This document shows positions 12,401 through 34,293 of a DNA stretch of 36,438 bases, piece after piece. Positions within the stretch are counted from its first letter, which is position 1; each line of letters opens with the position of its first letter. The DNA comes from Leptolyngbya sp. Prado105. GTDB taxonomy: Bacteria; Cyanobacteriota; Cyanobacteriia; Leptolyngbyales; Leptolyngbyaceae. The notes under the pieces were generated by a model, which was not told the DNA's origin, did not search any database, and worked only from the letters and a program-made list of their open reading frames with translations. The position numbers and the translations under genes were made by a program. The stretch lies in NCBI GenBank assembly GCA_025454375.1, contig JALOOO010000018.1, positions 1-36,438 on the forward strand, read 5' to 3'.

Positions 12401-15400
12401 ATAGCAAAGTGACGAATATCGAAACGACAGAGTTTGGGATAGGTGGCAGCGATACGATCACAGGAGATGAAGGAAACGATATCGCGATCGGTGGATTTGG
12501 AATCGATACGATTAGCGGAAATGCTGGCGATGATATTCTACTCGGCGACAATGGTAAGGCAAGCTTTACAGCAGGTGTCGTTGTTAATGTCGAGACAACT
12601 GCTCCTAGCATTGGTAGTAACGACATCATCAATGGCAATGATGGAAGTGATATCGTACTCGGTGGATTTGGAGCCGATGTGATGACTGGCGAGACTGGCG
12701 AGGATGTTCTAGTCGGTGACAATGGACGAGTACAGTTTGCGACTGGAATTCTGACGAAAGTTGAATCGATCGATCCGGGTCAAGGGGGCAATGATGTGAT
12801 CGCTGGAAATGCTGGAAACGACATTGCGATCGGGGGATTGGGTGACGATACGATTTCTGGCGATGCAGGACTCGATACCTTGCTGGGTGACAATGGTAGT
12901 GTTGTCCGAGCAGATGGAACCCCTCAAGCGAATGATGTCTATTCCACTGATCCGACTTTTGGAGGTCGAGATGTAATCACAGGCGGACTCGACAATGACC
13001 TAATCATTGGTGGCTCTGGCAATAGCGATGCACTGGACTTAGGGGGTGACACACTCTCCGGCAACGAAGGAGACGATATTATCATTGGCGACAATGCTGA
13101 TATCACTCGCGATAGTAGCGATAGTACTGAACTCGTTGAATCTCTCTTCCCGATCCAAGGTGGAGACGACACGATCAATGGAAACGATGGGAATGACCTG
13201 ATCCTAGGCGGATTTGCAAACGATACGATCAGCGGAAATGCGGGTAGTGACATCATTTTGGGCGATCACGGCAAAATTACCCTACCGAATGGAGTCATTG
13301 CCAGAATCGAAACAGCAAATCCGCTCAATGGTGGTAATGACTCCATTCAAGGGAATGAGAATGCAGATATCATTCTCGGTGGTTCTGGAGATGACACGAT
13401 CGCAGGTGGACTTGCAAACGATGTGATTTTGGGAGATCACGGTGTGATTGTCCGTGCAGATGGCTCATCTCAAGCGAATGATATCTACTCAACTGATGCA
13501 GCCAATGGAGGGAAAGATACAATTACTGCTGGTCTGGGTGATGACATTGTGCTAGGGGGTGCAGATGCCGATCGCATTTCTGGCGATGAAGGTAACGATG
13601 TAATTTTCGGAGATCATGCTGATATCACTCGCAATGCCAGTGATGTCATTGAGAAAATTACTTCTACTTTTGCCGACCAAGGAGGAGACGACACACTTGA
13701 AGGCAATGATGATGATGATGTCTTACTGGGTGGAGCAGCGAATGATGCAATTCTTGGAAATTCAGGTAAAGACATCATTCTAGGCGACAACGGCAGCTTA
13801 GACTACTCGCTCGATAGTAACCTCAGCACTTTAGATCTGATTACCACAACTCAGCCCACAATCGGCGGCAATGACAACATTCAAGGCAACGAAGATAACG
13901 ACATCGTACTGGCTGGAGCCGCAAACGATACGGTAACGGGTGATGCTGGCGATGATGTACTAATTGGCGACCATGCTGAAGTCACTTTAACAAACAACCA
14001 GATCGAGCAAGTCGAGAGCATTGATCCAGGCATCGGCGGAGATGACAGCGTTTCAGGCGGAGATGGTATTGACCTAATTCTTGGTGGATTCGGACAAGAT
14101 ATCCTCTACGGCAATGCTGGAAATGATCGAATGCTCGGAGACAATGGCTTGTTTGATTTTGCCTATGCAGGAGATACTGCTGTCGGTGCGGACACGAATC
14201 TATCAACCTTAGATGTGATCAAAACAACTGATCCAACACTGGGTGGGAATGACAGCATTTTTGGTGGTGCAGGTGAAGATCAAGTCATCGGTGGATCAGG
14301 TTCCGACTTTGTAGCAGGCGATGATGGAGTTGACCCAACGGTTGTCCTAACTCGCGAGTGGACAGTTGCAGAGCGCGGAGATTTCAATGGGGATGGAAAC
14401 GTCGATATTCTCTGGCGTAATCAAGTGAGAGGCGATGTTGCTGTCTGGTTGATGAATGGTAAAGATATTCTCGATTATGCAGTCATCTTGCCAAGTGTGC
14501 CTTCTAACTGGTCGATCGCAGGAGTCAATGACTTCAATAATGATGGCAAAGATGATTTGCTCTGGCGCGATCGTAACAGTGGCGATGTTGCGGTCTGGTT
14601 GATGAATGGTAGAAGCATTCAATCTTCTGCAATTACACTCTCTAGTGTCCCTCTCAACTGGACAATCAAAGGGATTGCTGACCTCAATAACGATAAGAGA
14701 GCAGATCTAGTCTGGCGCGATCGTAACAGTGGCGATGTTGCTGTCTGGTTAATGAATGGCACTCAAATTCAATCGAGAGGCATTGCGCTCTCTAGCGTGC
14801 CGCTCAGTTGGGAAATCGAAGGCGTTGTCGATCTCAATAACGATGGAAATACAGATCTAGTCTGGCGCGATCGCAATACTGGTGATGTTGCAGCTTGGTT
14901 AATGAATGGAATTCAGATTCAATCTTCTGCAATCATCCTTGCGCGTCTGCCGCTTAGCTGGAAAATTGCAGGATTTGGAGACTTTAACAACGATCAAAAA
15001 GCAGATATCATCTGGCGAGGGCAAGACAATAACGAAGTTGCAATCTGGCTAATGAATGGGCTTCAAACAGCTAGCACAGGGATTCTACTAGCTGGTGTTA
15101 CTTCAAACTGGACGATCGAAGGCGTAAGTGATCTAAACAACGATGGTCGGTCAGATATCGCTTGGCGCAATCGCACTAACGGTGACGCTGCGGTTTGGTT
15201 AATCAACGGAACGCAGCTTGCTGGAGCCGCAGTAGTGCTTTCTGCAATTCCGTCTAGCTGGGAGATTGAAGGAGTTGATGACTTTAATCAAGACGGTAAG
15301 GCTGAACTCTTCTGGCGCAATACTGTAAGTGGCGAGGCTGCAATTTGGATGATGAATGGTCTGACTCTCACAGAGTCAACACTCTATCGTGAAGGTTCTC

Positions 15401-18006
15401 TCCAACCCACTGCAACGCCCTCTGATGATTTGGTCATGGGAGACCATGCGATCGTCTACCAAGCATTACAACACGATCGCAATTTCGTCTCGATCGACAC
15501 GCAGGCAACCGATGGGGGTGGAGAGGATGTCTTGTATGGAAATCAGGGAGATGATATTCTGCTGGGTCAGCAAGGCAATGACACGATGTACGGTGGCATC
15601 GGTGAAGACGATATGATCGGCGGTCACAATGTCTTGGGTGGAGCCGATGGCAATGATGTCATGGATGGCGAAGGTAATGCGGATGTGATGCTCGGCGATA
15701 ACGGAAGGATTACTCGTCGTCGAGTGAACAATGCTTGGCAGCGATTTGTTGCTCCCTTTGCGACTGTGATTCGAGACATGACGCGATTTGATGATGTCGA
15801 TCGCATCAGTGGGAATGACACGATGCGAGGCGGAACGGGTGATGACATTATTCAAGGTCAGCGCGGGGATGACATCATTGATGGCGGGGCTGGCGATGAT
15901 GAACTCTACGGTCAGCTTGGAAATGACACTATTCAGGGTGGAGAAGGTCAAGATACAATCCTAGGAGATGCTGGCATTATTACTCGCGACTCGAACCCAG
16001 ATGGTTCTGCTCGTCGAAATCTCAATGGTTCATGGCATCGAGATGTAATTCTGACTGATGTGGGTCGAGTAACTGGAACCTTTAGCAGTACTCCAACCGC
16101 CGGACAGTTCCAGACTCCAGATCTCCTGCTGCTCAGTGGTTCTGCTGGCTATCAAGTGGAATTCCTAGGAGATGGAAATGATGTGATTGATGCGGGTGCT
16201 GGCGATGATGCAGTCTTTGGTCAACGCGGAAACGATATGATCCAAGGCGGCTCAGGCAATGATTACATCGAAGGTAATGCAGGTAATGATCAAATTGATG
16301 ACAGCACTGGAGATGACTTTATCGTTGGGGATGATACCTCGAATCTGCCCCCGTTTAATACTGAACTGCCGATCGTCACTCGCGGCATCCACTTAATTGA
16401 GCAAAATGCAAATCTAGTGCTTGATTTCTTTGGCACGATCGTCACGCCACAGTTGACCTTAACACCTGATCCAATTTCGGGCTTGCTCCCGGCTCTGACG
16501 CTCTCACCAACCTTGACCCGCGATCATTCTCTAACGCCAATTACTGGAAACTTGAGAACGTCCTCTGGTGCAACGCTGCAAACTCTAGTCGCAGTCATTC
16601 CAGACATTCTGAATCACCTGGATCTACTCGCAGGAAATGATCGACTCAACTCTGGTACTGGCTTAGATACCGTCGTCGGAGATAACTACACGAATACGAT
16701 TCCACTCAGGACTGGGAATGCTGCGATCGATCAATCCTTAGATACAATGGTGCGATCGCTCTATCACTTGAACTATGATCTGCATGGTTTAGAACTTGCA
16801 CTCACAGGAACAAGTGGCGCTCAACCTAGAGAACTGACAATCGGTAGCGATGTCATTGATGCGGGTAGCGATCGCGATTTAGTGATGGGCGATAATGCTT
16901 TCTTTATTGGCGGTTTGACGATTAACTCACCTAGCAATGCAGCGGTTCTGTCCTCACTCCTTGGTGAACTGCAACAGGTGATCTCAAGTTTCAATAGCAC
17001 CGTGAATTTTGTCCTGAATCCACTCGTCAATCGACCCATGACTCAACCCATTACATTAGCAATCGGCAATGATCAAATCACTGGCAATGCTGGGGATGAC
17101 AAATTGCTCGCCGATGACACCTTTATCATTGCGCCAAACTTCAAGAATCCGAACTATGTGAAAGGGAGTTTCTGGAACTACACAGTTAACGGTGCAAACA
17201 GACCTGCGCGTCCGACCCTGCGCGAATTCAACTTGAAGCTAGGCAATGATCTGGTCAATGGAGGTACGGGCAATGATTTGATGATTGGAGGCTATAGTAA
17301 TGTGATTCTGCCGCTAGCAAATCAAGCTCCAACGACTCAAGCTGAGCGCACCCAGTTCCAACGAGATTTAGAACTCATTGCAGAGGATGTGAGAACGTTC
17401 ATTCGCGACCTGCACAATACCAATCATGGAATTGATTACGTCAATAACAATCAGTCTCATACCCTGATTGCTCAAAATGATGTGATGAACGGCGAAGCGG
17501 GAGAAGATGTAATGCTCGGTGATAATGCGACCCTACTCTTGCCGATCGTGAACGGTCAAATTAATCTCAGCTTTGAGCTTGTGAATGGTTATCTCGATTC
17601 TAGCGATTCGTCTCATAATTTTAGCCAGGGCTTACTACATCAGTACGACTTGATTTATCGCAATCCGAATCTTGGAGTCACACAATTTGCAGAAGACACG
17701 ATGACAGGTGGCGATGGCAATGACATTCTGTTTGGTCTACGAGGCATTGATAGGATGCAGGGAGAGAGTGGTGATGATTATCTATTGGGTGGAGCAGAGA
17801 CAGATGTGATTAATGACACACTCGGTAACAATGTGATTCGAGCAACAAATCCAAGTGCTGGAGATATCACGATCATCAATCCTCGGATCAATACCTATCT
17901 GACGAATTTTCTTAGCCCTGCCCTTCAACGCTATGTCACTGAGCTAGATCAAGAGAAAAACAGCCTGACGATCGAAGGACAGTTTCAGCTTTCTTTCCCT
18001 GGCTAA
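409..18006 (+). CDS. Giant DUF4347 / beta-repeat / RTX / FG-GAP surface or secreted protein (5865 aa)
   Basis: One unbroken frame. Residues ~39-204 are a DUF4347 domain (SSIAFVDRGIQGYEQL, HILSHGSSGG, DILLYGCDVA, ending near ANYQSVFG), found at the N terminus of very large cyanobacterial repeat proteins. Residues ~205-2915 are Gly/Ala/Ser/Asn-rich beta repeats with recurring AGSVSVN-like motifs, probably a beta-solenoid stalk. Residues ~2925-2975 are a helical hydrophobic patch (VVSRIPIIGWFVKWVTR) unlike its surroundings. Residues ~3760-4640 and ~5005-5315 are calcium-binding RTX repeats (GGxGNDxI). Residues 4645-4994 are seven FG-GAP-like repeats. There is no N-terminal signal peptide; RTX proteins usually leave by type I secretion, but no transporter genes are in this window. 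Its role is inferred as a large adhesin or matrix protein; no catalytic domain was recognised. Confidence 0.9.
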   Translation: MQSDALLRNALVGSTTAIAPAPLEINLSPALNEISRSSSIAFVDRGIQGYEQLIANAASGIDFYVLDPVKDAVSQITDILLERKNVSAVHILSHGSSGGLALGKSWLDSNALERYADQFQSWSKALTQDADILLYGCDVAADEAGEAFVKILSQLTQADVAASTDLTGSANLGGDWTLEYNQGKIEAGLAIQSAALANYQSVFGISFTGTAIANAGINTASAIARVTGNAILNVLGDITIDANGITGDGTGGADNLTLTATGKVDIRGLVGTGGLDNLTINAKEIIVADNVRIEALSDVTFAAKDLRITIESLLPGVLPISADIKSAGITLGNNAVMQAENIDLSAEAKDINPTDGLNEFLDGIIVQPLLESFAGQLPSLPVSVMIRKSNANITIGNGSQILASGDVNIAATAEADATGEASGEFLSVGWSDATASATTNIGQNVVIQASGDVDITATAGAVANMTTETAPPEEGESQVPGVAASLAVARADITAKTTIAQGATITAGGNANILATGSVEREAGSGSEASQGGKAGVSLGLGFTKSDIQAIVNGEVTARTTKENVFSPASAINNNADTITLSNHGFKNGQAVVYSKGSGSDIDGLEDGSTYFVIVVNSNTIKLAESAKAVEENEAIDLSNAGVQGTDHVLKDPGIRVVAQLETEDKASATSGVSDEEEETPDAKGADGASTSVDPSALIQGLTANNASQNAGAGGSGSKSNFSAAGAFAFSRVQNNVAATVGLTGILKSEADISVLATIENKNQTQAEASVEPNEGAQASTASAAVIVGLYSNSAIAKVDGTTDARKATTISSEVIYPFLSTVEENFDILGKLKEDGIAGLVEHFDDGTLGFKSSLFNSWAKSTAKAEKLGIAGSVNFQQFTSNAQAIVGSNAKINQTAAFQTNEQTVSVEAKTELHQINITGVFDFELTTEKLQELKDSKDRLADLNPAGSQSGKGGMGGSLFLLFNNSNTIAKVESGALIRTGADGDLTVNAESKNIDINVAQSGASGKQFGVGGTFVYTQQTSNTIAQVESGVKFQGGALNITAADETTRVNAVGGVAKGGNVGIGLSVSLNNMDRTVSAFIGQVATTTPITGTDIDAGDITIAAKGTGGLWSFSLAAAIASKNPQDQTDQNPPEQSTDVADSQGQSDDPLDGVTLPTLFGEMTPEESPGNQNNSAANTSNDKGNQGKSGIGISGDVSINTATDRVSAFINDAGTIKGEKVALEATNDTVMRVSSGSAAFAKSADPNATSVGIAGSVSVNTLTGTTNAFISGTATGGQKLALIASELSLKATRSGDLFALSASGSGAPGKNGIAIAGSVSVNRITNTTQAYLDGVQAAITGSVLLDAQDSTHIFAIGGAASLSGKAGFGAGVGVNIIKNAVKANSNNTTLDLGTSLTLSAVNGSEIQAIALSFGVSLAQNGIGGAGTISVNNITLTTEASIAQTNRTIAVPLPTGAIALTAKNTAEIRSLAGAVGGGSSVGFGAAVAYNGITNNTQASISQSNLATTAGTEISAESSGTIQSLTLGVGGGKDLGLGGSVAINVIRGGTRAFVDQNTVLLAGGQINLRAKDTSTIEGLSGGIAGSQKAAIGAAISVNDISTTTTSYIEKSVVTSQNAGVHSRAEASATIKTITVGGVVSGKVAIAGSVSVNLIRKTVDSHIADTATVTAAQDVKVEAIASSTLEANGGALAVAGKVSVAGSLAVNDVENRTIARIAGSTVTSSQGNVIVSADSRDTVRTISVGGSGAGKVGVAGSASVSMMGNNTTAEIVGSTVSADDNVLVLANSRNSIEFYGGTISIGGVAGVGGLANVNTIANTTQASIRQGANVTAKGNATSLIPKADGTKTINGNQLTELTRGIAVIATSEEQVDVVSVNLAGGGKAGVAATASVTVLESQTTASIDSASINANNTGANAGQTVKVKASNNSTVDIKAGSIAGSGAVGVGATVDVTVIGNTTRAFINNAPIVNAQAGVDVTSFTREKFGSVVASGAGGFFAGVAGSLLVSDIRSQNEAFIAGSTINTFGNLRVIADDQVEATGAAGAAGLAGKGVGFGATISVITIANSTTARITNSTTNASGLTEVKANSVESVTTGGASLAAALFGGVAGTSLVSSLTTRTIATIDGTSRVNQDQAYRTATQDVRVTAANSSTLTGGVASLGGGIVGFGASVMVSGIWNTTSASIGDNAIVSAGRNITVNAVSNKSVTTAVMAFAGGGVGVAGAVSVVNIGSGMSSDGTSSVSGTQSTTDDQLNKSHVDSGLGSTSYANRAKTRADSKTVGMRTVGFGSTAPVLNGTSAFIGVNAVVNAGTDVNVTATETITLNQGIGNIAVGAVGVGGSVAIANINGNTQAFLAAGSTVNAGNNINVNANFTNTLNSIAGAGQGGLVGLGAQVVIVNDNSSQLAAIRNGARINQANNVSVNARANRTNTSTMVNLQAGGYVAGAAIARLTGNGSTQALVGNDAQIGQVEGSTVGSLSISADANLTATATTRSLSVGIGSASANVAIVDFSPTISANIGAGADIKTLRNINVVSSGTANVSTDVAGVNAGGFAVGLSDARSQVSTTLTTNVGNGSVLDAGTNILLASRFNRDTNGQLISSKQVKASASSSAGALIGLTGSNAEAKMTTNVAAAVGSNATLKAGNNVLIQSLAGNVVDAYASGQALGIAAAGVTSARAEIDNTSTASTDANVQINAGQNITISAQSDNRVIRSEAIGGAGGLFAGASTSGTAIITDNTTASVGANTRITALSGTIKVESLVSNEARSRGSISTGGAVTSNRTDSTSNVTSQVRTTIGDGANLLSDRIQLHSKVTKLDVDADAYSKTIAVNSTTNAQSNVDTNVDTKVTNGIGASLNGQNRLEIISRQDGVDTDSKAKSEIAAGLTGSVFATAHNNMDLDADIDILSRSNLSGLDILLEAVSPQDRNAIYVLDPETVAKTVVNYVLTAVEEVVKVVSRIPIIGWFVKWVTRTVMRLVEQILNSETEAKRSGNFSSNNTINLAGDIYQGAPSRASLVINPDLSVLTQGNISAQIVGNEVVVSDVTTMPPGQILINSPFGTVTGDVVIHKNSVLESVDITNNSTKDLRINRIRTINNAVESPDLDIRADINTANVTTVTDVVGLPSITIQNNTASNVIFAGLIENSTGSLLVANQGGSILMGSNVQLENASADLNAAQGRIGDLTNRLNLRLFDETTNATLQANAGQSISLNLQLSSNALSTGITQLDGLDLNSITAGQDIDLTIRQSDIYQFDLDTFVLSRVAIDGIYNLKNLSSTQGSVKVDIAQGTANISKVQAQSGTVNLKTVGQLVDVNTIGADIIAQDAILQATAGIGSTSNAIDTAVSRLEANGSGGMWINNTGNLSIGGISPMIGLTITGDLSLTNAGSVTVTENVTASGNVQVTTTDTQNQGEDIEVVANTKVESTGANVSLLAGDNFTLNPTGTIAARTQILIKGDHGNADSIGSTIDIRGALQAPVIEITGDSNTDRVNLTNVSTGSPVAIRTLDGDDTINIGSNSTPTANANGTLNRINANLTIDGGTGSDQFKADDSGDTTANTGTLTSNQLLGLGMTGTINYAGVEAIEVALGSGADTFTVASTIAGTTTVNTNAGTDTVNVQSISGATTVNAGGDNDTINVGNASNTVNDIAATLTVQGHVGTDALNVIDSGDTTANTGNLTSTRVSGLGMTGTIDYDTVEALDITLGSGGDTFTIQSTHTGSTTLNSAAGADTISIQSNTGATTVNAGANDDTVAVSVTTPGSTVVVNGEAGNDSLNATTSTRGVVLNGGDGDDTLQGGSGNDLLGGGSGNDRIEGNAGNDEIYGDSTFPVQATDAAYSSFTFDANVMTAPAGSRPSPTQQASQGNDTISGGIGSDTVYGEGGNDNIVGGSFTMNIVDGTDYLFGGAGNDAIAGDNATIDINRSIAVFNDNNGAVDYIFGDTGTLKFAPTGEVTRAANASVAGDGNDTIAGQIGNDAIFGGASNDVLAGNLGDDLLIGDQGTIDFINSKVTNIETTEFGIGGSDTITGDEGNDIAIGGFGIDTISGNAGDDILLGDNGKASFTAGVVVNVETTAPSIGSNDIINGNDGSDIVLGGFGADVMTGETGEDVLVGDNGRVQFATGILTKVESIDPGQGGNDVIAGNAGNDIAIGGLGDDTISGDAGLDTLLGDNGSVVRADGTPQANDVYSTDPTFGGRDVITGGLDNDLIIGGSGNSDALDLGGDTLSGNEGDDIIIGDNADITRDSSDSTELVESLFPIQGGDDTINGNDGNDLILGGFANDTISGNAGSDIILGDHGKITLPNGVIARIETANPLNGGNDSIQGNENADIILGGSGDDTIAGGLANDVILGDHGVIVRADGSSQANDIYSTDAANGGKDTITAGLGDDIVLGGADADRISGDEGNDVIFGDHADITRNASDVIEKITSTFADQGGDDTLEGNDDDDVLLGGAANDAILGNSGKDIILGDNGSLDYSLDSNLSTLDLITTTQPTIGGNDNIQGNEDNDIVLAGAANDTVTGDAGDDVLIGDHAEVTLTNNQIEQVESIDPGIGGDDSVSGGDGIDLILGGFGQDILYGNAGNDRMLGDNGLFDFAYAGDTAVGADTNLSTLDVIKTTDPTLGGNDSIFGGAGEDQVIGGSGSDFVAGDDGVDPTVVLTREWTVAERGDFNGDGNVDILWRNQVRGDVAVWLMNGKDILDYAVILPSVPSNWSIAGVNDFNNDGKDDLLWRDRNSGDVAVWLMNGRSIQSSAITLSSVPLNWTIKGIADLNNDKRADLVWRDRNSGDVAVWLMNGTQIQSRGIALSSVPLSWEIEGVVDLNNDGNTDLVWRDRNTGDVAAWLMNGIQIQSSAIILARLPLSWKIAGFGDFNNDQKADIIWRGQDNNEVAIWLMNGLQTASTGILLAGVTSNWTIEGVSDLNNDGRSDIAWRNRTNGDAAVWLINGTQLAGAAVVLSAIPSSWEIEGVDDFNQDGKAELFWRNTVSGEAAIWMMNGLTLTESTLYREGSLQPTATPSDDLVMGDHAIVYQALQHDRNFVSIDTQATDGGGEDVLYGNQGDDILLGQQGNDTMYGGIGEDDMIGGHNVLGGADGNDVMDGEGNADVMLGDNGRITRRRVNNAWQRFVAPFATVIRDMTRFDDVDRISGNDTMRGGTGDDIIQGQRGDDIIDGGAGDDELYGQLGNDTIQGGEGQDTILGDAGIITRDSNPDGSARRNLNGSWHRDVILTDVGRVTGTFSSTPTAGQFQTPDLLLLSGSAGYQVEFLGDGNDVIDAGAGDDAVFGQRGNDMIQGGSGNDYIEGNAGNDQIDDSTGDDFIVGDDTSNLPPFNTELPIVTRGIHLIEQNANLVLDFFGTIVTPQLTLTPDPISGLLPALTLSPTLTRDHSLTPITGNLRTSSGATLQTLVAVIPDILNHLDLLAGNDRLNSGTGLDTVVGDNYTNTIPLRTGNAAIDQSLDTMVRSLYHLNYDLHGLELALTGTSGAQPRELTIGSDVIDAGSDRDLVMGDNAFFIGGLTINSPSNAAVLSSLLGELQQVISSFNSTVNFVLNPLVNRPMTQPITLAIGNDQITGNAGDDKLLADDTFIIAPNFKNPNYVKGSFWNYTVNGANRPARPTLREFNLKLGNDLVNGGTGNDLMIGGYSNVILPLANQAPTTQAERTQFQRDLELIAEDVRTFIRDLHNTNHGIDYVNNNQSHTLIAQNDVMNGEAGEDVMLGDNATLLLPIVNGQINLSFELVNGYLDSSDSSHNFSQGLLHQYDLIYRNPNLGVTQFAEDTMTGGDGNDILFGLRGIDRMQGESGDDYLLGGAETDVINDTLGNNVIRATNPSAGDITIINPRINTYLTNFLSPALQRYVTELDQEKNSLTIEGQFQLSFPG
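2071..2370 (+). other. Inserted beta domain in the stalk of the giant protein
   Basis: Residues ~560-655 break the AGSVSVN-type repeat pattern with a different segment (ADTITLSNHGFKNGQAVVY, then GLEDGSTYFVIVVNSNTIKLA). From memory, this GHGL/GDAVVY-type module recurs in large bacterial surface proteins between stalk repeats. Its function is unknown. It is followed by an acidic linker rich in Glu and Asp near nucleotide 2430. Confidence 0.5.
11686..14340 (+). repeat. RTX array 1 with a 57-residue (171-nt) super-repeat
   Basis: This is coding repeat DNA inside the giant gene. Nonapeptides of the GGxGNDxI type bind calcium in RTX beta-rolls. They are grouped into longer units that end in a [LV][LI]GD[NH] station followed by a short strand and then GG.D.I.GN. 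Stations start at 12370, 12541, 12712, 12883, 13084, 13258, 13429, 13606, 13780, 13963 and 14134. Five of the ten steps are exactly 171 nt; the others are 174, 174, 177, 183 and 201. This suggests duplication of whole super-units rather than of single nonapeptides. Confidence 0.85.
14341..15390 (+). repeat. Seven exact 150-nt (50-aa) FG-GAP/VCBS-like repeats, predicted seven-bladed propeller
   Basis: Seven consecutive units each contain a calcium-loop-like D[FL]N.D motif, then W R, then a WLMNG-type strand. The WLMNG motif (WLING in unit 6, WMMNG in unit 7) ends at 14460, 14610, 14760, 14910, 15060, 15210 and 15360, so every step is exactly 150 nt. FG-GAP repeats of integrin type form seven-bladed beta-propellers, so seven copies suggest one complete propeller (residues ~4645-4994). 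The block sits between two RTX arrays. Units 2-4 are the most alike, which points to recent duplication. Confidence 0.85.
15421..16350 (+). repeat. RTX array 2 of the giant protein
   Basis: RTX nonapeptides resume directly after the propeller (GGEDVLYGNQGDDILLGQQG, later GNDYIEGNAGNDQI). Single isolated RTX units continue in the less repetitive C-terminal part, for example near 16630, 17060, 17260 and 17710. The C terminus itself (ending LSFPG) is not repetitive and may carry the secretion signal; this last point is inference from RTX biology. Confidence 0.75.
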
Positions 18007-24311: not shown

Positions 24312-24376
24312 ATATATTCTTACGTCTAGGTTGCTTCAGTTCTGCCTAGTTCGTGTTTTCAAGTTTGGGTAAAATC

Positions 24377-24928
24377 ATGAGTTCTAGTACAAAATTGCTC
24401 AATGCTGGCACAATGTTAGGCTTGTTGGGTTTGGGAGTGATACTATCCTCCGCTCTACCTACAATGGCACATCCATCGGAGAATCCTGTCCAGATTGCTC
24501 GGATAACACCTCGCGCTTATGTTGGGCTGACTTATCGTGATCTTCCAAAAGGGCTGGAAAATCGAGGCGGTTGGGTGATTGACAGCGATCGTAGAGACCC
24601 AACTCACGGAGGGGCAATCATTCGTCAAGGTCAATCTCAAATGCTGTGGTTAGAACGATACATCAGCCGTGATGCAGCAGGCAGAGTCACTTATCAAGTG
24701 GTGGATGCGTTGAATTTGCCCGAGATTTTGAAATCGCGGGAGCTTGCTGTTGGGTTTTGTCGGTTGAATGGTAGATCAGATCGCAGAATTGCCGCGATCG
24801 TGGAGGCAACGAATACTGAATTCAGAACAAGAGTGCATCGAGCATGGCAACTGAACATTAATACAGGTAAGATTGTCCCGATTAGCACCAGAAGAATTGC
24901 TTGTGAAAATCCAGGATGGGGCGTGTAA
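24377..24928 (+). CDS. Secreted protein of unknown function (paralogue A)
   Basis: 183 residues from the ATG at 24377; an in-frame GTG at 24353 would add eight residues ahead of the signal peptide and is less likely. Residues 1-32 are a signal peptide (hydrophobic LGLLGLGVILSSALP, cleavage after TMA), so it is probably periplasmic or exported. The mature part has GGWVI, then VVDALNLPEI, GFCRLNG, AAIVEATNTE and a final ISTRRIACEN, with two cysteines that could form a disulfide. I do not recognise a named family. A related reading frame lies on the opposite strand at 26127-26486, with an oxidoreductase gene in between. No clear operon partner. Confidence 0.7.
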   Translation: MSSSTKLLNAGTMLGLLGLGVILSSALPTMAHPSENPVQIARITPRAYVGLTYRDLPKGLENRGGWVIDSDRRDPTHGGAIIRQGQSQMLWLERYISRDAAGRVTYQVVDALNLPEILKSRELAVGFCRLNGRSDRRIAAIVEATNTEFRTRVHRAWQLNINTGKIVPISTRRIACENPGWGV

Positions 24929-26126: not shown

Positions 26127-26627
26127 CTACTCCATATTTTCGCAAGCAATGCCTTGGGGACTGATTGGCTCGATCTTCTCTGTCTTGGTATTAGCACGCC
26201 ACGCTTGATAGACATGGGATCGGATTTTGGTATCGGTCGCTTCTACGATCGCAAAAATCTCTCGATCGTAGGTTCCATTCAGCATACAAAACGCATAGTG
26301 AAGTCGCTGCGATTTAGAGAGTTCAGGTAGCTCCAGGACATCCACCACTTGTCTGGGAAGGGGACCCCTTTGATTGCTCTCCAGGAATTTTGCATACCAT
26401 AGCACTGTGGTTTTGTCCTGTTTGAAGATCTGACCGATGTACCCTTTCGGAATCACCCAACCTCCATCGTCTTGCAGATCAGTCACAGATTGCTAGTCTC
26501 GGTAGAACCTGGGCGAACTATTAACAACTTGTTCAACCTTACAATCTTTTCCGCTAGCCGATTGACAGGCTCTACGAGCATTGCGTTCTGCTCGACGGCG
26601 CTTTTCAGCCCTGATACAGCCCACCAT
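26127..26627 (-). pseudogene. Degraded paralogue B of the secreted protein, interrupted by an in-frame TAG
   Basis: From a GTG at 26486 the minus strand encodes 119 residues clearly related to the protein at 24377: DGGWVIPKG, VVDVLELPELSKS, FCMLNG, AIVEATDTKI, ISPQGIACEN at the end. It lacks a signal peptide. In the same frame upstream, an ATG at 26627 with AAAGGA before it encodes 44 residues (EKRRRAERNARRACQS, then NSSPRFYRD) ending at a TAG (26495-26493). Translating through this TAG gives SPRFYRD, stop, QSVTDLQDDGGWVI, which aligns with TPRAYVGLTYRDL and GGWVI of paralogue A. So this appears to be one gene split by a nonsense codon, with a signal peptide already lost. Restart at 26486 is possible. 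Confidence 0.65.
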
Positions 26628-29191: not shown

Positions 29192-29368
29192 TTAGAAGTA
29201 CTTGTCTTTGGCAGGTTCGCCTTCAAAAGGTTGTACACCCGTTTCAGGATAGTCATCATCACTCACACCAAAAATTCGGACGATCGCACCTGAAATGAAT
29301 TGAATCACGTTGTGCGGAATTGCTTTCACCGTTTGCCAGAGGTCTTGTACACGAGTGTTAGTAGACAT
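29192..29368 (-). CDS. Small conserved 58-residue protein
   Basis: The product starts MSTNTRVQDLWQTVKAIPHN and continues VIQFISGAIVRIFG, then an acidic tail with SDDDYPETGVQPFEG. GAGGAG lies ten bases before the ATG. The amphipathic helix followed by an acidic conserved-looking Y-P-x-T-G-V-Q-P-F motif suggests a real small protein; from memory similar short proteins occur in other cyanobacteria. Function unknown. It begins 23 bp after the end of the 73-residue gene upstream on the same strand, so the two probably form an operon under the direct-repeat promoter at 29681-29700. Confidence 0.7.
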   Translation of the reverse strand: MSTNTRVQDLWQTVKAIPHNVIQFISGAIVRIFGVSDDDYPETGVQPFEGEPAKDKYF

Positions 29369-29391: not shown

Positions 29392-29613
29392 TTAGCTTTC
29401 GTCCCTTGCTGCTCGCATATGAGCGGTTTCTTGACGTTGTTCTTTGTGTTGACGTTCCTGAGTCACAGTTTCTCGCATCGCTTGATCCAAATCGCCTTCC
29501 TGCATTGTTTCGAGTGCCTCTTCAGCACGTTGATGAATACTGTGTTGCCGATGCTCCTCTGCGAGGCGATTTTGTGTGACAGTACTCCGCAGATGCTCTT
29601 CTGAATTCAGCAT
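29392..29613 (-). CDS. Small charged coiled-coil protein (73 aa)
   Basis: The start is the ATG at 29613, because AGGAGAG lies just upstream; the frame is open to 29667 but without another good site. The product is helical and very rich in Glu, Gln, Arg and His (RLAEEHRQHSIHQRAEEALE, then QERQHKEQRQETAHMRAARD), has no cysteine or membrane segment, and looks like a soluble coiled coil. I do not recognise a family. It is first in a two-gene operon, and the direct-repeat element lies 67 bp before its start. The promoter context suggests stress-linked expression (inference). Confidence 0.65.
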   Translation of the reverse strand: MLNSEEHLRSTVTQNRLAEEHRQHSIHQRAEEALETMQEGDLDQAMRETVTQERQHKEQRQETAHMRAARDES

Positions 29614-29665: not shown

Positions 29666-29700
29666 AAGATAGAAAAATAATGTGAGGAAGTTGTGAGGAA
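29666..29700 (-). promoter_or_regulatory. Direct-repeat activator box and promoter, copy A
   Basis: On the minus strand TTCCTCACA (29700-29692) and TTCCTCACA (29689-29681) are perfect 9-bp direct repeats with an 11-bp period. After the second TTCCTCA core come exactly 11 bases and then TATCTT (29671-29666), a -10-like hexamer. No -35 hexamer is present where the box lies. This is the arrangement expected for a tandem-binding OmpR/PhoB-type activator. It points toward the 73-residue gene. Confidence 0.6.
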
Positions 29701-29710
29701 AGGGGATCAC

Positions 29711-32110
29711 TCAAGTTTGCAAAGCGTGATTCGATTCAGCAGGTAGAATTGAGCTAGCCGAATGCTGTAGATGGGTTGCTTCTCGCAACTGTTTCGCTTG
29801 GCGCAGGGCTAAATCTGCAATGCGATAGAGGGTCTTCAAGTCTTTGCCATCTTCGGGATGTTGGGCAACACCAGCGCTAAAGGTAACATGAATAATTTCT
29901 CCGGTTTCTGTCGTGAATGCCTGGTAAGGTAAGCGCTCTAAAACATGGATCAAGCGTTGTACGCCATCTTCACGTGTCATCCCATACATGCCAATCACAA
30001 ATTCTTCTCCGCCCCAGCGTGCCACGATGTCTTCATTGCAGAATGATTGTCTGAGTAAATGCCCAAATTGTCGTAAGACGGCATCTCCTGCGGCATGACC
30101 ATATTGAGCATTCACATCGCGTAAGCGATCGACATCGATCACCGCGATCGCAACGGGTTGCTGAGAACGGTCGGACGATCTCAAAAAAGCTTCTAGTTCT
30201 TGAGTCGATTTCTGCCGATTTTTGGCTCCAGTAAGCGGATCAGTTTCGAGCAATTGTCGCAGCAATTTGACGCGCTCCAAACGGTTGAGAATGCGTGTGA
30301 CCAATTCTGCACCAACAATCGGTTTGCTGACAAAATCATCTGCACCTGCCGCAAACACTTGCGAGATGAGTTCCGATTCGGAGTGAGCCGTCAGAACCAC
30401 GACAGGGAGATGATTCCAATTGATATCATTCCTGACGATCTGACAGAGTTCAATCCCATTGAAATTCGGAAACTCGATATCTAGAACCAACACATCAGGC
30501 ACAACTGTTTCCAGGGTTTCCCAAAAGCGTTTGGGGTCGTTCAAGGTAAAAATCTTCAAGCCCCAGGGCTTCAGCAAAGTTGTGACTGCATCGAGTAGAG
30601 CGACATCATCATCAACAACTAAAATTTTGGCTTGAGTTGGAATGATGCGTTGGAGAATTTGTGAGGCTGCTTCTAGAACTTGCGAGGCTGGAAGCGACTT
30701 CTGTAAGAGTAATCGTCCACCGTGTCTAGAAACTTCTAAGCGCTCGGTAAGTTCATTGCGAGAAGTCAGAACAATCGCTGGAATCGCAGGCGAGTACTGC
30801 TGAAATGAAGCGAGAAGTGTGAGGCTTGTCTCGATCGCATCAAAGCAATCGAGATCGAGAAGGACTAAACTTGGGGCATCATTCTCACAAATCTTGGTGA
30901 CAGCTTTAGCAGTTGTTGCACTCTCACATTGATAATTCCACTGCACAGCTTCGTTGTTTAAGGCAGGGATCAAGGTTTGGTCTTGTGAGATAACGAGAAT
31001 CGACGGTTGCTGAATTGTTTTTCGATCGAGCAATTCCGATTCTGCTTCTGAACAAATTGGCTCAGTCGTAGAGGCAGGAACATCAATCACTCGACGCAGA
31101 GAATTGAGCGATTCTTGGAGTTGTTTTAAGGCTCTCGGTTTTAGAGGGCAACTCGCGAGGATTTGTTCAATGGTTCTAGCAATCTGAGAGCCTTCTGTAA
31201 AGCCAAATGTGCCTAGAGATCCGGCTAAGGTGTGGGCTTGTTGAGTCGCTTGCGCTTGTAGGGTGAGATCCGATTGACAGGCAACTTGCTCAATGATGGC
31301 GATTTGTTCATTCACTCGCTCTTTATACTTTGTCCAAACCGTGCCGAGTTTCGATCGGACTTCTTGCGCGGTTGAGTTTGAAGTGTCCGATGGAGTCCGG
31401 CTGCTGAGCGGTCTAAGCCGATATCCAATGCCATAGACCGTCTCAATAAAATCAGCAGGCGCACCTGCTGATTTGAGTTTTTGGCGTAATCCTTTGATAT
31501 GGGTTCTGACTGCTTCTTCGCCGGGTGCATCGTATGTCCATAGGTGTTCTAAGATACTGCCGCAGCTAAAGACTCTGCGACTGTTCCGCAAAAAAAGCTC
31601 TAAGAGTCCATATTCTTTGGGAGTTAGGATGAGCGGTGCGGAACGGTAGGTGACTTCGCAAGCGCTGGGGTTTAGTTGCAAATCGCCCCATTCGAGCAAA
31701 GGAGTGGCAGTTGATTTGGCGCGGCGGAGAAGTGCCCGAATGCGGGCGACGAGTTCTTCTTCATCAAAGGGTTTAATGACGTAATCATCGGCTCCTGCGT
31801 CCAATCCAAGTGCGCGATCGTGGTGACTTCCGTAAGCTGTTAGTAACAAAATGGGCAGTTGAGCAGACTCTATGTTCTCAGCGTGCTGGGCTAAGAGTCG
31901 CACTTGCCGACAGAGTTGGATTCCATCGATATCAGGCAAGCCAACGTCTAGAATTAATAGATCGTATTCAAAGCTTTGCAGGAGAGCGAGTCCTGATTTT
32001 CCATCTTTTGCGACTTCTACAGCGTAATGATGGGCAGTGAGAATCGTAGTCAGTGCCTGAGCCATTAATTCATCATCTTCAATGATCAGAATTCTCATAG
32101 GCTGATTCAA
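29711..32110 (-). CDS. Multi-domain response regulator: REC, winged helix, HPt, REC, REC, GGDEF
   Basis: 799 residues. REC1 (~6-120) has acidic pair EDD and phospho-acceptor Asp55. The OmpR/PhoB winged helix is at ~135-233 (ILTPKEYGLLELFLRN, VRTHIKGLRQKL, YGIGYRL). An HPt domain (~255-345) has AHTLAG with His293. REC2 (~370-485) has Asp419 in LVLLDLD but a weak N-terminal acidic pocket, so it may be degenerate. REC3 (~495-612) has VVDDD and Asp544. The GGDEF domain (~618-778) has an intact GGEEF at 700-704, so it probably makes cyclic di-GMP; the inhibitory-site RxxD is changed to CNED (691-694). It may relay phosphate within itself and link transcription to cyclic di-GMP. No histidine kinase gene is adjacent. 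Confidence 0.9.
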   Translation of the reverse strand: MNQPMRILIIEDDELMAQALTTILTAHHYAVEVAKDGKSGLALLQSFEYDLLILDVGLPDIDGIQLCRQVRLLAQHAENIESAQLPILLLTAYGSHHDRALGLDAGADDYVIKPFDEEELVARIRALLRRAKSTATPLLEWGDLQLNPSACEVTYRSAPLILTPKEYGLLELFLRNSRRVFSCGSILEHLWTYDAPGEEAVRTHIKGLRQKLKSAGAPADFIETVYGIGYRLRPLSSRTPSDTSNSTAQEVRSKLGTVWTKYKERVNEQIAIIEQVACQSDLTLQAQATQQAHTLAGSLGTFGFTEGSQIARTIEQILASCPLKPRALKQLQESLNSLRRVIDVPASTTEPICSEAESELLDRKTIQQPSILVISQDQTLIPALNNEAVQWNYQCESATTAKAVTKICENDAPSLVLLDLDCFDAIETSLTLLASFQQYSPAIPAIVLTSRNELTERLEVSRHGGRLLLQKSLPASQVLEAASQILQRIIPTQAKILVVDDDVALLDAVTTLLKPWGLKIFTLNDPKRFWETLETVVPDVLVLDIEFPNFNGIELCQIVRNDINWNHLPVVVLTAHSESELISQVFAAGADDFVSKPIVGAELVTRILNRLERVKLLRQLLETDPLTGAKNRQKSTQELEAFLRSSDRSQQPVAIAVIDVDRLRDVNAQYGHAAGDAVLRQFGHLLRQSFCNEDIVARWGGEEFVIGMYGMTREDGVQRLIHVLERLPYQAFTTETGEIIHVTFSAGVAQHPEDGKDLKTLYRIADLALRQAKQLREATHLQHSASSILPAESNHALQT

Positions 32111-32166
32111 GCTGATTCACAATTTCTATTTTCAGATAGTTTGATAACGTTGGTCATTTCTTCTGT

Positions 32167-32194
32167 GTAATAGTTACAAAAGTTCAAATGACAA
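32167..32194 (-). promoter_or_regulatory. Candidate promoter of the response regulator gene
   Basis: On the minus strand TTGTCA (32194-32189) is separated by 16 bases from TATTAC (32172-32167). The -35 matches 5 of 6 consensus bases and the -10 matches 4 of 6. It lies about 57 bp before the ATG at 32110. Confidence 0.4.
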
Positions 32195-32228
32195 GGGATA
32201 CGGGGGCAGGTACGAACTCTAGAACTCT

Positions 32229-32263
32229 TTCCTCACAACTTCCTCAAATTTCAGCAGTACTCT
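32229..32263 (+). promoter_or_regulatory. Direct-repeat activator box and promoter, copy B
   Basis: TTCCTCACA (32229-32237) and TTCCTCAAA (32240-32248) repeat with an 11-bp period; the 18-base core TTCCTCACAACTTCCTCA is identical to copy A. Exactly 11 bases after the second TTCCTCA comes TACTCT (32258-32263), in the -10 position. It points toward the secreted-protein gene at 32526. Confidence 0.55.
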
Positions 32264-32420
32264 CTAAAGTGTTCTCTTTTAAGGCTTTCGATGCACGATT
32301 GCTAACGCTGCTCGGTTCAGGTGTAGAACAAATCGGTGGATAAAATCATGATCGAGGAATTCAGAATAACGTCTACTTGTCCTTGCTACGATCTCCTGCT
32401 TATATCGCTGCCTGGAAGAC

Positions 32421-32449
32421 GGTTTTAGGGGTGCGGTTTTAAAGGGTGC
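32421..32449 (+). repeat. Tandem GGTTTTA(A)GGGTGC pair
   Basis: Two adjacent near-identical units of 14 and 15 bases lie in the presumed leader of the secreted-protein transcript. A third partial GGTTTTAG follows near 32502. Role unknown; they could be protein-binding sites or an RNA element. Confidence 0.4.
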
Positions 32450-32525
32450 GAATAGGAGCGAGGAGTCGTTCGATCGCTGAATTTTGCAGTCATCGCGACT
32501 CGGTTTTAGAAAGAAGGTATGAGTT

Positions 32526-33074
32526 ATGTTAGCTCAGAAGATATTTCAAGTTGCTGTTGCATTGTCTTCCTGGATGGGTGGGATGATATCCATTCATGCG
32601 ATGCCCCCTCAATTTCCAGTGCTAGCAAATCTGAGCGATGGGAACTATCAAATGTGTAGTCAACCTCCTCCTCAAAGTTGGCAGCAAGGAGCGGGAGTCT
32701 GTTTGGTCTTTACAAAGCAAGGCGATCGAATTGAGGGATACTATGGCTATCCGCATTCAGATGCCTTTGTCTGCCTAAGGGGAACGAGTCGTGCGACACA
32801 GGTGAGTGGGCAGGGGTATCTTGTTTTGTGGGAAGGAGCGCCTTGGGAAAAGCCGACTCAGCCATTGATTTGGGATAAGGAGCAACGACTTCGATTAGAG
32901 CAAGCGAAACTTGTTCGGAGTAGTGCTAAGAGCCAGTCGGAGATAGAGCGGATTTTGTTTCAGAAAGCAACGTTAGATGTTCGATCGTTCTATCTCTACA
33001 ACAGTCCTAAGATGACCTCACCCAAACAGTTATGCAATTGGAACTTTCAGAGTACATTCGGCTTTAACAGTTAG
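32526..33074 (+). CDS. Secreted protein of unknown function
   Basis: 182 residues. AGAAGG lies a few bases before the ATG. Residues 1-~35 are a signal peptide (QVAVALSSWMGGMISIHA, a second plausible cleavage after VLA). The mature part starts with NLSDGNYQMCSQPP and contains GAGVCLVF, GDRIEGYYGYP and FVCLRG, with four cysteines that suggest two disulfides in the periplasm. From memory, short cyanobacterial proteins with a DGxYxxC...GxCxxF...GxxxxGxY pattern are common but uncharacterised. Box B lies 277 bp before its start. Its stop codon overlaps that of the convergent acetyltransferase gene. Confidence 0.65.
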   Translation: MLAQKIFQVAVALSSWMGGMISIHAMPPQFPVLANLSDGNYQMCSQPPPQSWQQGAGVCLVFTKQGDRIEGYYGYPHSDAFVCLRGTSRATQVSGQGYLVLWEGAPWEKPTQPLIWDKEQRLRLEQAKLVRSSAKSQSEIERILFQKATLDVRSFYLYNSPKMTSPKQLCNWNFQSTFGFNS

Positions 33075-33571
33075 TTCTTTGCTAAAAACCCTTGATGGAA
33101 GGTCACAATGCCTTTTGGTATCTTTTCAGTAAATGGTAAAGCTAGAAAGAACTCTTGAGGAATGCCCTCATAAATCAAGTCTGGATAATTCCGAAAACCG
33201 AAGCGTATGTAGTAAACAGGATCACCCACAAGGCAGCATCCTAGCCCGCCGAATTCTTTGATCTGTGACAATCCTGCTTGCATCAGGGCTGTTCCGATAC
33301 CTTGCCTTTGATATTCTGGCAGAACTGAAATTGGTCCTAGCCCAAACCAGTTTTGTGTTCCGTCTGAGATAACGATCGGTGAAAAAGCAATATGTCCAAC
33401 AATCTGCCGATCAATTTCTGCGACAAGTGAGACAGCCAGCACGCCCGCAGCACGCAAAGCATGAATAATGAATTGCTCTGTGTGCTGACTGATCGGATGA
33501 TTCTTAAAGGCGGCGATTGTTACTTCTGTAATTGCGTCGATGTCTGAAGTAGTTTCTTTTCTGATAATCAT
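33071..33571 (-). CDS. GNAT-family N-acetyltransferase (YhbS-like)
   Basis: 166 residues, a typical single GNAT domain. It starts MIIRKETTSDIDAITEV, has the central strand VGHIAFSP, then GLGPISVLPEYQRQGIG, whose QRQGIG (88-93) is the acetyl-CoA pyrophosphate loop, and later GDPVYYIRFGFRNY, the signature of the YhbS group (COG3153). These transfer an acetyl group from acetyl-CoA to an amine; the acceptor is not known here. The minus-strand gene converges on the secreted-protein gene and their stop codons overlap. The next gene upstream is divergent. Confidence 0.88.
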   Translation of the reverse strand: MIIRKETTSDIDAITEVTIAAFKNHPISQHTEQFIIHALRAAGVLAVSLVAEIDRQIVGHIAFSPIVISDGTQNWFGLGPISVLPEYQRQGIGTALMQAGLSQIKEFGGLGCCLVGDPVYYIRFGFRNYPDLIYEGIPQEFFLALPFTEKIPKGIVTFHQGFLAKN

Positions 33572-33702
33572 TGAGAGTTCCTATTTATTCTTTGAAGTGA
33601 TGTCATAAACAATCGGCGCAATCCTGGCAGTCTGAGCGTAAATCTTTTGTGCATGGCTTATCGATCGTGACGAATGGTGCAATTGATTATATCGTGATGC
33701 TC

Positions 33703-33737
33703 TTGCTCACAAGTTCCTCAACTTTGTAGTTTATAAC
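33703..33737 (+). promoter_or_regulatory. Direct-repeat activator box and promoter, copy C
   Basis: TTGCTCACA (33703-33711) and TTCCTCAAC (33714-33722) have the same 11-bp period as copies A and B and match 16 of the 18 core bases. Exactly 11 bases after the second TTCCTCA comes TATAAC (33732-33737), a good -10. It lies 64 bp before the universal stress protein start, almost the same distance as copy A to its gene (67). Confidence 0.6.
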
Positions 33738-33786: not shown

Positions 33787-34293
33787 ATGTTTCACAAGAT
33801 TTTAGTCGCGATCGATGATTCTGAACTGAGTCAGATTGTGTTCGAGCAAACCCTAGCCCTAGCAAAGGAAAATCAGGCAGACTTGCTGCTGCTGCATGTG
33901 CTGGAGCCGTTTGAGGATAGCTATCCGGGTGATCCTTATATGGGCATTTCCGATTCGGCAAAGCAGGCTTATTTGAAACACTGGAAGGAATGGGAACAAA
34001 CTGGAATTGATAGACTAAAATTACTGGAAGAACGTGCAACGGCAGCCGGAGTATCGACAGAATTTACGCAAAGTCTGGGGCATCCGGGTAAGGTGATCTG
34101 CGCGCTAGCGAAGACTTGGAATGCAGATTTGATTGTGGTAGGTCGGCGGGGATTTAAAGGGCTTCAAGAGTTTTGGATAGGCAGTGTGAGCAACTATGTG
34201 CTGCACCATGCACCTTGCCATGTGCTGACGCTGCAAGGGAATATCCAGGTTGGGAAAATGGAGGATGCGATCGCGGCTTACCCTCAAAGATGA
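33787..34293 (+). CDS. Universal stress protein (UspA family, ATP-binding type)
   Basis: 168 residues, one Usp domain. It starts MFHKILVAIDDSELS (Asp10 binds ATP in the family) and has LLLLHVLEP. It carries the ATP-binding motif G-x2-G-x9-G-S in full (Gly119, Gly122, Gly132, Ser133), followed by VLHHAPCHVLTL. This puts it among the ATP-binding members, cytoplasmic and induced by stress. The start ATG lies after GAGGTTAAGG. Box C is in its promoter and a terminator-like hairpin follows, so it is probably transcribed alone. Confidence 0.92.
   Translation: MFHKILVAIDDSELSQIVFEQTLALAKENQADLLLLHVLEPFEDSYPGDPYMGISDSAKQAYLKHWKEWEQTGIDRLKLLEERATAAGVSTEFTQSLGHPGKVICALAKTWNADLIVVGRRGFKGLQEFWIGSVSNYVLHHAPCHVLTLQGNIQVGKMEDAIAAYPQR

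Follow-up and report, generated by a model that had tools for sequence, protein, structure and literature searches.

A direct-repeat promoter box, TTCCTCA-N4-TTCCTCA, occurs three times around the gene of an OmpR-type regulator in a 36,438-nucleotide stretch of DNA from the cyanobacterium Leptolyngbya sp. Prado105 (assembly GCA_025454375.1, contig JALOOO010000018.1, positions 1 to 36,438; hereafter, the window). We propose, with a probability of roughly 70%, that this box is the activator site of a subfamily of RcaC-like regulators, which combine a receiver (REC) domain with a winged helix-turn-helix (wHTH), and that the regulon serves cells under low oxygen or dark energy limitation. Many cyanobacteria meet dark anoxia, and what would be new is a two-component regulon of RcaC-like type whose half-site and targets are novel and which probably has an oxygen sensor. 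A literature search covering the titles and abstract openings of open-licence papers found neither the box nor the regulon. The analysis supplies a predicted binding site, a predicted regulator with a predicted specificity helix, a candidate oxygen sensor and a target list across dozens of genomes, and its predictions are directly testable and bear on hydrogen and ethanol production. The elements in the window on which the proposal was built are as follows.

29666 to 29700, minus strand: box 1, TTCCTCA-N4-TTCCTCA (repeats at 29700-29683, TTCCTCACAACTTCCTCA), 11 nucleotides (N11) and the -10-like hexamer TATCTT; leave-own-out matrix score, 42.7.
29711 to 32110, minus strand: proposed regulator, with REC, an OmpR-type wHTH (helix EEAVRTHIKGLRQKLKS), Hpt, a further REC and a GGDEF domain with a GGEEF motif.
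32229 to 32263, plus strand: box 2, divergent from the regulator gene (repeats at 32229-32246), with the -10-like hexamer TACTCT; score, 39.6.
33703 to 33737, plus strand: box 3 (repeats at 33703-33720, TTGCTCACAAGTTCCTCA), with the -10-like hexamer TATAAC; score, 33.8.

A check of the window sequence found all three boxes at the positions and on the strands given by a first-pass annotation that had been made from the letters alone. Boxes 1 and 2 are the same over 18 bp, and box 3 differs by one mismatch. The gap from the second repeat to the hexamer is exactly 11 nucleotides in all three, as that annotation had it; its description of the hexamers as TAnnnT is not strictly correct for box 3, because TATAAC ends in C. 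From the second repeat to the ATG we measured 69 nucleotides at site 1 and 66 at site 3, in place of the 64-67 bp first reported. The window by itself cannot settle the significance of the box, since its match count is unremarkable: with up to three mismatches, 8 matches are found for 5.1 expected, and 14 of 100 shuffles reach 8. Significance was judged by whole-genome and cross-genome counts in place of window-only statistics.

In the genome of Prado105 (G000 in our numbering of genomes, in which C denotes contigs and L opened loci), both repeats are exact at only three places, and eight more places carry one mismatch; TAnnnT or TATAAC follows exactly 11 nucleotides on at 7 of these 11. The hexamer was found at this distance in none of the 19 two-mismatch loci that were opened (L012-L030), and three further two-mismatch places, outside those 19, do carry it. 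Scored with the leave-own-out matrix, which was applied to 22 candidate places rather than to the entire genome, 10 exceed 21: three on C20, two (divergent) on C272, two on C369 and one each on C329, C150 and C173. The regulon had been taken for a local one, a view that gives way before these ten places and the occurrence of the box in many cyanobacteria.

Indeed, TTCCTCA-N4-TTCCTCA-N11-TAnnnT with at most one mismatch is found at 132 sites in 39 of 115 genomes, our own included, versus a single site for the backwards control. The consensus of 130 aligned sites (two sites on G027:C118 were dropped as a duplicate contig) is wTCCTCACAAgTTCCTCAaaTTtttttttcTAnncT, and conservation extends to positions outside the query, namely C (82%), A (88%) and A (83%) within the N4 spacer and T at position +21 (87%). 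A matrix scan of the site loci (1.49 Mb, with a few overlapping stretches and the training sites included) returned 174 matches at a score of at least 20 and none in the reversed sequence. Furthermore, the exact 18-mer TTCCTCACAAGTTCCTCA, queried without the hexamer, has 59 copies in 39 of the 388 genomes of the class (control, 0). Of 31 distinct copies in 30 opened loci, 21 have TAnnnT at N11 and 30 have TA there, and any other spacing yields at most three TAnnnT hexamers. The first-pass annotation had named random placement over the genome and a lack of conservation upstream of orthologous genes as outcomes that would speak against it: both points were checked, and neither outcome refuted it. 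Box 3 is nearly identical to the box before a universal stress protein gene of G014. The box was absent from six matrix-scanned loci (L053-L058) of named organisms; these belong to the 13 loci, at 35-55% identity, that a search with the full regulator retrieved from the contigs of those organisms.

The window boxes are real and not due to chance. That they are a dispersed repeat or some other sequence artefact, as the identity of two of them over 18 bp might suggest, has a very small probability, given that the flanks are little informative beyond the promoter, the -10 spacing is fixed, the controls are near zero and the targets are coherent; chance and repeat-element origins are both refuted by the cross-genome data. 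Direct repeats with an 11-bp period, a fixed distance to the -10 element and no -35 element are the marks of an OmpR/PhoB-type promoter, the geometry that had been suspected from the window and that is now supported by the alignment and by the N11 spacing. The system resembles PhoB/OmpR in its Trans_reg_C-type wHTH and in 11-bp direct repeats that replace the -35 element at a fixed -10 distance, but its half-site differs and its regulator is multidomain. The two half-sites would occupy the -35 region ahead of the TAnnnT -10 element, as in a class-II-type site.

The window regulator has three REC matches, a Pfam Trans_reg_C wHTH, an Hpt and a GGDEF domain, and so joins REC to Trans_reg_C; its subfamily has the recognition helix AVRTHIKGLRQKL. 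Among the matches listed, the closest orthologue is that of G002 (80% over the protein), and its boxes lie on the two sides where the window has them. Across the 115 genomes, the protein searches scored up to 8 or up to 24 candidates per genome. With up to 24 scored, a REC-wHTH homologue of at least 63% identity was found in 27 genomes, and 25 of these 27 contain the box, versus 14 of the 88 others (p = 3e-13). Within the window's family, two or more boxes occur in 18 of 20 cases with the regulator versus 3 of 22 without it (p = 1e-6). Among 86 regulators fetched by homology, a box lies within 1.5 kb in 16 of the 31 with the helix signature [AS]V.T[HQ]IK[GC] and in 2 of the 55 others (p = 3e-7); this association test and the tree leave out regulators below 40% identity. 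In the tree, a group of 34 rows, 31 of which bear the signature, has an SH-aLRT (approximate likelihood ratio test) support of 95. Four signature rows fall outside it: L318, with no box, and L147, L127 and L196, with the helix AV[SN]TQIKGLRQKL and a box. By these comparisons, the window regulator's subfamily tracks the TTCCTCA box within and across genomes, which bears out the link to the OmpR-type regulator that had been drawn from proximity in the window: co-occurrence, helix-box association and tree all support it.

Several observations, here and in the sections on targets and sensors below, weigh against the reading we prefer. The helix signature was chosen after the data had been seen. 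Among the homologues opened, no signature regulator was found in four genomes with boxes, G019 (3), G003 (2), G038 (1) and G068 (1), and the boxes of G085 are accompanied only by a near variant of the signature. Conversely, the signature occurs in G022, G025 and G044 with no box at up to one mismatch, G025 having a weaker box close to its regulator. Boxes beside signature regulators are mostly divergent from the gene or behind it. Five signature regulators have their nearest box 0.5-1.4 kb upstream, on their own strand, so the box could partly serve the regulator's own operon. The four box-bearing genomes and these five cases are what one would cite for the idea that another regulator binds the box and that the RcaC-like gene is a mere neighbour or a member of the regulon. 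We consider this improbable, as, in the window and in several relatives, the boxes next to the regulator gene are directed away from it and as the co-occurrence and the helix-box association are strong. ChlR was rejected as the binder, its site being palindromic according to a 2026 review (PMC13421787) versus a direct repeat here. Apart from this, a second divergent regulator with the helix AVNTQIKGLRQKL (L127, at C369:5336-7162 of our genome, and L196, in G002) has slightly different boxes adjacent to it and possibly governs a paralogous sub-regulon.

The half-site of the L box is TTGCACA, and the architecture of RcaC is REC-wHTH-Hpt-REC. The motif had not been recognised from any described regulon in the first-pass annotation; it does, in fact, resemble the RcaC L box, a likeness that went unnamed there. 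Both systems use a regulator of the cyanobacterial REC-OmpR-wHTH-Hpt-REC family and 7-bp direct repeats with N4 spacing, and a TAAT-like stretch follows about 11-13 nucleotides after the L box in 19 of 32 contexts, counted by eye. A search with the motif TTGCACA-N4-TTGCACA gave 37 exact L boxes in 28 of the 115 genomes (control, 0). Four regulators within about 1.5 kb of an L box (L294, L338, L339 and L396) have the helix TVRSH[LV]RRLR, unlike AVRTHIKGLRQKL, and the three of them in the tree form a clade of their own (SH-aLRT, 100) apart from the window's group, on which basis RcaC proper was rejected. The half-sites also differ, TTCCTCA here versus TTGCACA, and fermentation and stress targets here contrast with the phycobilisome genes of RcaC in Fremyella chromatic acclimation. 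Helix signatures and nearby boxes thus point to two regulator types, with different helices beside different half-sites, a specificity puzzle within one regulator family. The binding of RcaC to an L box is stated in PMC8256508. Of note, our genome contains one exact L box, at C376:16822-16839 on the minus strand (L283); a TCTAAT stretch comes after it, as is the case in several relatives.

Candidate targets were collected behind 134 sites, the 130 aligned sites plus four own-genome sites with two mismatches; two had no open reading frame (ORF) and eight had only short, unclustered ORFs, leaving 124 first genes to be scanned. Universal stress proteins (USPs; Pfam Usp) head the list with 11, followed by HSP20 (8), phosphoenolpyruvate (PEP) synthase (6), a carotenoid-isomerase-like FAD protein (6), pentapeptide proteins (5), phosphofructokinase (4), response-regulator domains (4), AMP-binding proteins of the acetate-CoA ligase type (3) and ComFB (3). 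Two clusters have no firm Pfam name, an MSTCPC zinc-ribbon-like protein (10 sites) and a ComFB-like protein (9 sites), and a hydrogenase maturation protease cluster lies downstream of the box at 4 sites. Single targets above the NCBIfam cut-offs are HoxE, phosphoketolase, pyruvate formate-lyase (PFL) and pyruvate:ferredoxin oxidoreductase (PFOR); those below are the large subunit of a NiFe hydrogenase and an AdhE-like acetaldehyde dehydrogenase, and nitric oxide reductase was also found. Behind the 18-mer copies of the 388-genome search, a PFL-activating enzyme and a hydrogenase protease score above cut-off, and two partial PFORs and an NrdG-like protein below it. In relatives, then, fermentation and anaerobic enzymes do lie downstream of boxes. 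As judged from these assignments, the box targets form a coherent set of stress proteins, glycolytic and pyruvate enzymes, fermentation enzymes and hydrogenase components.

Stress and anaerobic families make up 40 of 94 targets versus 56 of 1128 neighbouring genes of the same loci, a figure that is only descriptive because the families were picked from the targets themselves and because many comparison genes may be operon partners. That choice of families is one of the unfavourable points, as is the presence of pentapeptide, carotenoid-isomerase-like, zinc-ribbon and ComFB-like targets, which have no clear role in anoxia. The targets recognised in our own genome are USPs, PEP synthase, ComFB-like, zinc-ribbon and CheY-like genes and, weakly, an Hsp20-like protein (E = 0.0065, under the cut-off); its box targets include no recognised fermentation enzyme. 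A ComFB-like protein is among these targets (L128, on C150) and the window regulator (29711-32110) has a GGEEF motif; a link of the regulon to cyclic di-GMP is conceivable.

Partner kinases offer an indication of the signal. By motif search, and with many of the loci short, 6 of 35 signature regulators carry a fused histidine kinase module and 8 have a kinase gene nearby; ten of these fused or neighbouring kinase proteins were domain-scanned. Eleven kinases share a very similar PAS domain next to or near HisKA, and the nine that were aligned (L191 and L256 were left out) are 78% conserved. The best PDB matches of this PAS are FixL (E = 2.6e-20) and then DosP (3.6e-14), and 13 of the 14 matches below 1e-10 are FixL, DosP/yddU or heme PAS domains, the other being a multi-sensor kinase. 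The histidine of FixL that is the proximal heme ligand has an aligned counterpart in 10 of the 11; L191 has Tyr at this position, a point against the preferred reading. This FixL-like PAS occurs in 23 of the 115 genomes and is fused or adjacent to a signature regulator in 15 of them.

Some of the evidence on sensors points the other way. At E = 1e-20, no FixL-like PAS kinase was found in our own genome, where all 35 candidates were scored, nor elsewhere in G000-G007, the window's genus, where in some genomes 38 of up to 58 candidates were scored. The best own-genome kinase (on C250) carries a different PAS and was rejected as a FixL-like partner. The window regulator ends in GGDEF where relatives have a kinase with the FixL-like PAS. 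Since neither a FixL-like PAS kinase nor a recognisable fermentation target was found in its genome, its oxygen link is by analogy. In addition, three kinases beside signature regulators (L176, L127 and L147) have no FixL-like PAS, and GAF domains are present in some neighbouring or fused kinases (L220, L160 and L127). An ethylene-receptor-like N-terminus (ETR1_N) occurs in two kinases near box-associated regulators, L154:10586-12610 on the plus strand and L176:8173-10347 on the minus strand.

These features could be accommodated by a different signal acting on the same box and regulator subfamily, namely light quality, darkness or general energy stress, with the fermentation genes induced because cells ferment in the dark. 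The subfamily is related to RcaC, a light-colour regulator according to PMC8256508, and the GAF kinases, the ethylene-receptor-like N-termini and the lack of a detected FixL-like PAS in the window's genome would all suit such a signal. We nevertheless regard it as unlikely, for FixL and DosP are the best matches of the PAS that most commonly occurs in one protein with the regulator or beside it, and the O2-sensitive PFL, PFOR and hydrogenase are among the targets. Our preferred view stays with low oxygen: the RcaC-like regulon for anoxia and fermentation probably responds to oxygen or redox.

The motif, its spacing, its targets and the statistical tie to the regulator can be read in the sequences, and we infer from them binding by the regulator, activation, and an O2 or redox signal. 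Our current working model is that, in many relatives, the input would come from a histidine kinase with a FixL-like PAS, encoded next to the regulator or as one protein with it. Once phosphorylated, the regulator would occupy the two half-sites as a head-to-tail dimer, bringing in RNA polymerase through a class II contact at the TAnnnT -10 element. The output would comprise fermentation (PFL, PFOR, AdhE-like protein, phosphoketolase, hydrogenase subunits and a maturation protease), glycolytic and pyruvate handling (phosphofructokinase, PEP synthase and acetate-CoA ligase) and dormancy-like protection (USP and Hsp20). A bolder version, to which we give about even odds, is that this is an undescribed oxygen-responsive master regulon of cyanobacteria, in which a FixL-like heme-PAS kinase, often fused with the RcaC-like regulator, acts through the TTCCTCACAAGTTCCTCA box to switch on fermentation, hydrogen metabolism and DosR-like dormancy proteins, the window's genus having swapped the sensor for a diguanylate cyclase module.

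Several known systems share parts of this scheme. The kinase PAS of relatives appears closest to the heme PAS of FixL, but the partner is RcaC-like and not FixJ, and no FixL-like PAS was found in the window's genome. The DosR regulon of mycobacteria, by analogy only, has USPs, Hsp20, phosphofructokinase and a low-oxygen logic in common with the present one; DosR is, however, NarL-type with a palindromic box, unlike the OmpR-type regulator with direct repeats proposed here. Control of fermentative genes has been described for Synechocystis, where PMC11368403 names SigE and cyAbrB2 for hox and nifJ, and LexA and Rre34 as possible helpers. The target kinds, hydrogenase and PFOR, are alike, whereas SigE and cyAbrB2 are a sigma factor and a nucleoid protein with no direct-repeat box. 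The same paper gives TANNNT as the SigE -10 consensus in Synechocystis, which the TAnnnT of our box fits. In the 2026 review of cyanobacterial redox regulation (PMC13421787), ChlR is an activator that senses oxygen, and RpaA and CyAbrB are named for hox; the text searched has no match for the terms RcaC, anoxi or hypoxi.

The genes around the window boxes are as follows.

29192 to 29368, minus strand: conserved 58-residue protein, second gene of the box 1 operon; in G002, G005 and G007, related proteins are encoded after Hsp20, downstream of boxes.
29392 to 29613, minus strand: 73-residue protein that corresponds to the C-terminal tail of Hsp20 in related genomes and lacks the alpha-crystallin core; over 67 residues it is 69% identical to the last part of a 215-residue Hsp20 (L195).
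32365 to 32430 (right edge approximate), plus strand: possible degenerate version of the MSTCPC zinc-ribbon gene that follows boxes elsewhere, from a weak 23-bp match, 21 identical, to the gene start on C329.
32526 to 33074, plus strand: 182-residue protein, probably secreted by its look, without a Pfam match; it is doubtful that box 2 controls it.
33787 to 34293, plus strand: universal stress protein, target of box 3.

The first-pass annotation had counted two small genes, the secreted protein and the universal stress protein as targets. The last of these stands; the first small gene turns out to be an Hsp20 tail, and the secreted protein is doubtful. Behind box 1, the window keeps the promoter, the start and the C-terminal tail of Hsp20, the core being gone. 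The gene at 32526 starts about 260 bp downstream of box 2, with the apparently decayed zinc-ribbon gene in between. From the core loss at box 1 and the apparent decay at box 2, damage seems to have reached two of the three local targets, the boxes themselves being well kept. Elsewhere in the window, a 5865-residue ORF (409-18006, plus strand) with many calcium-binding-type repeats has the look of a giant surface or secreted protein. Finally, the small proteins encoded at 24353-24928 (plus strand) and 26127-26486 (minus strand) look related by eye, sharing IVEATxT, AW, PIS and IACEN stretches.

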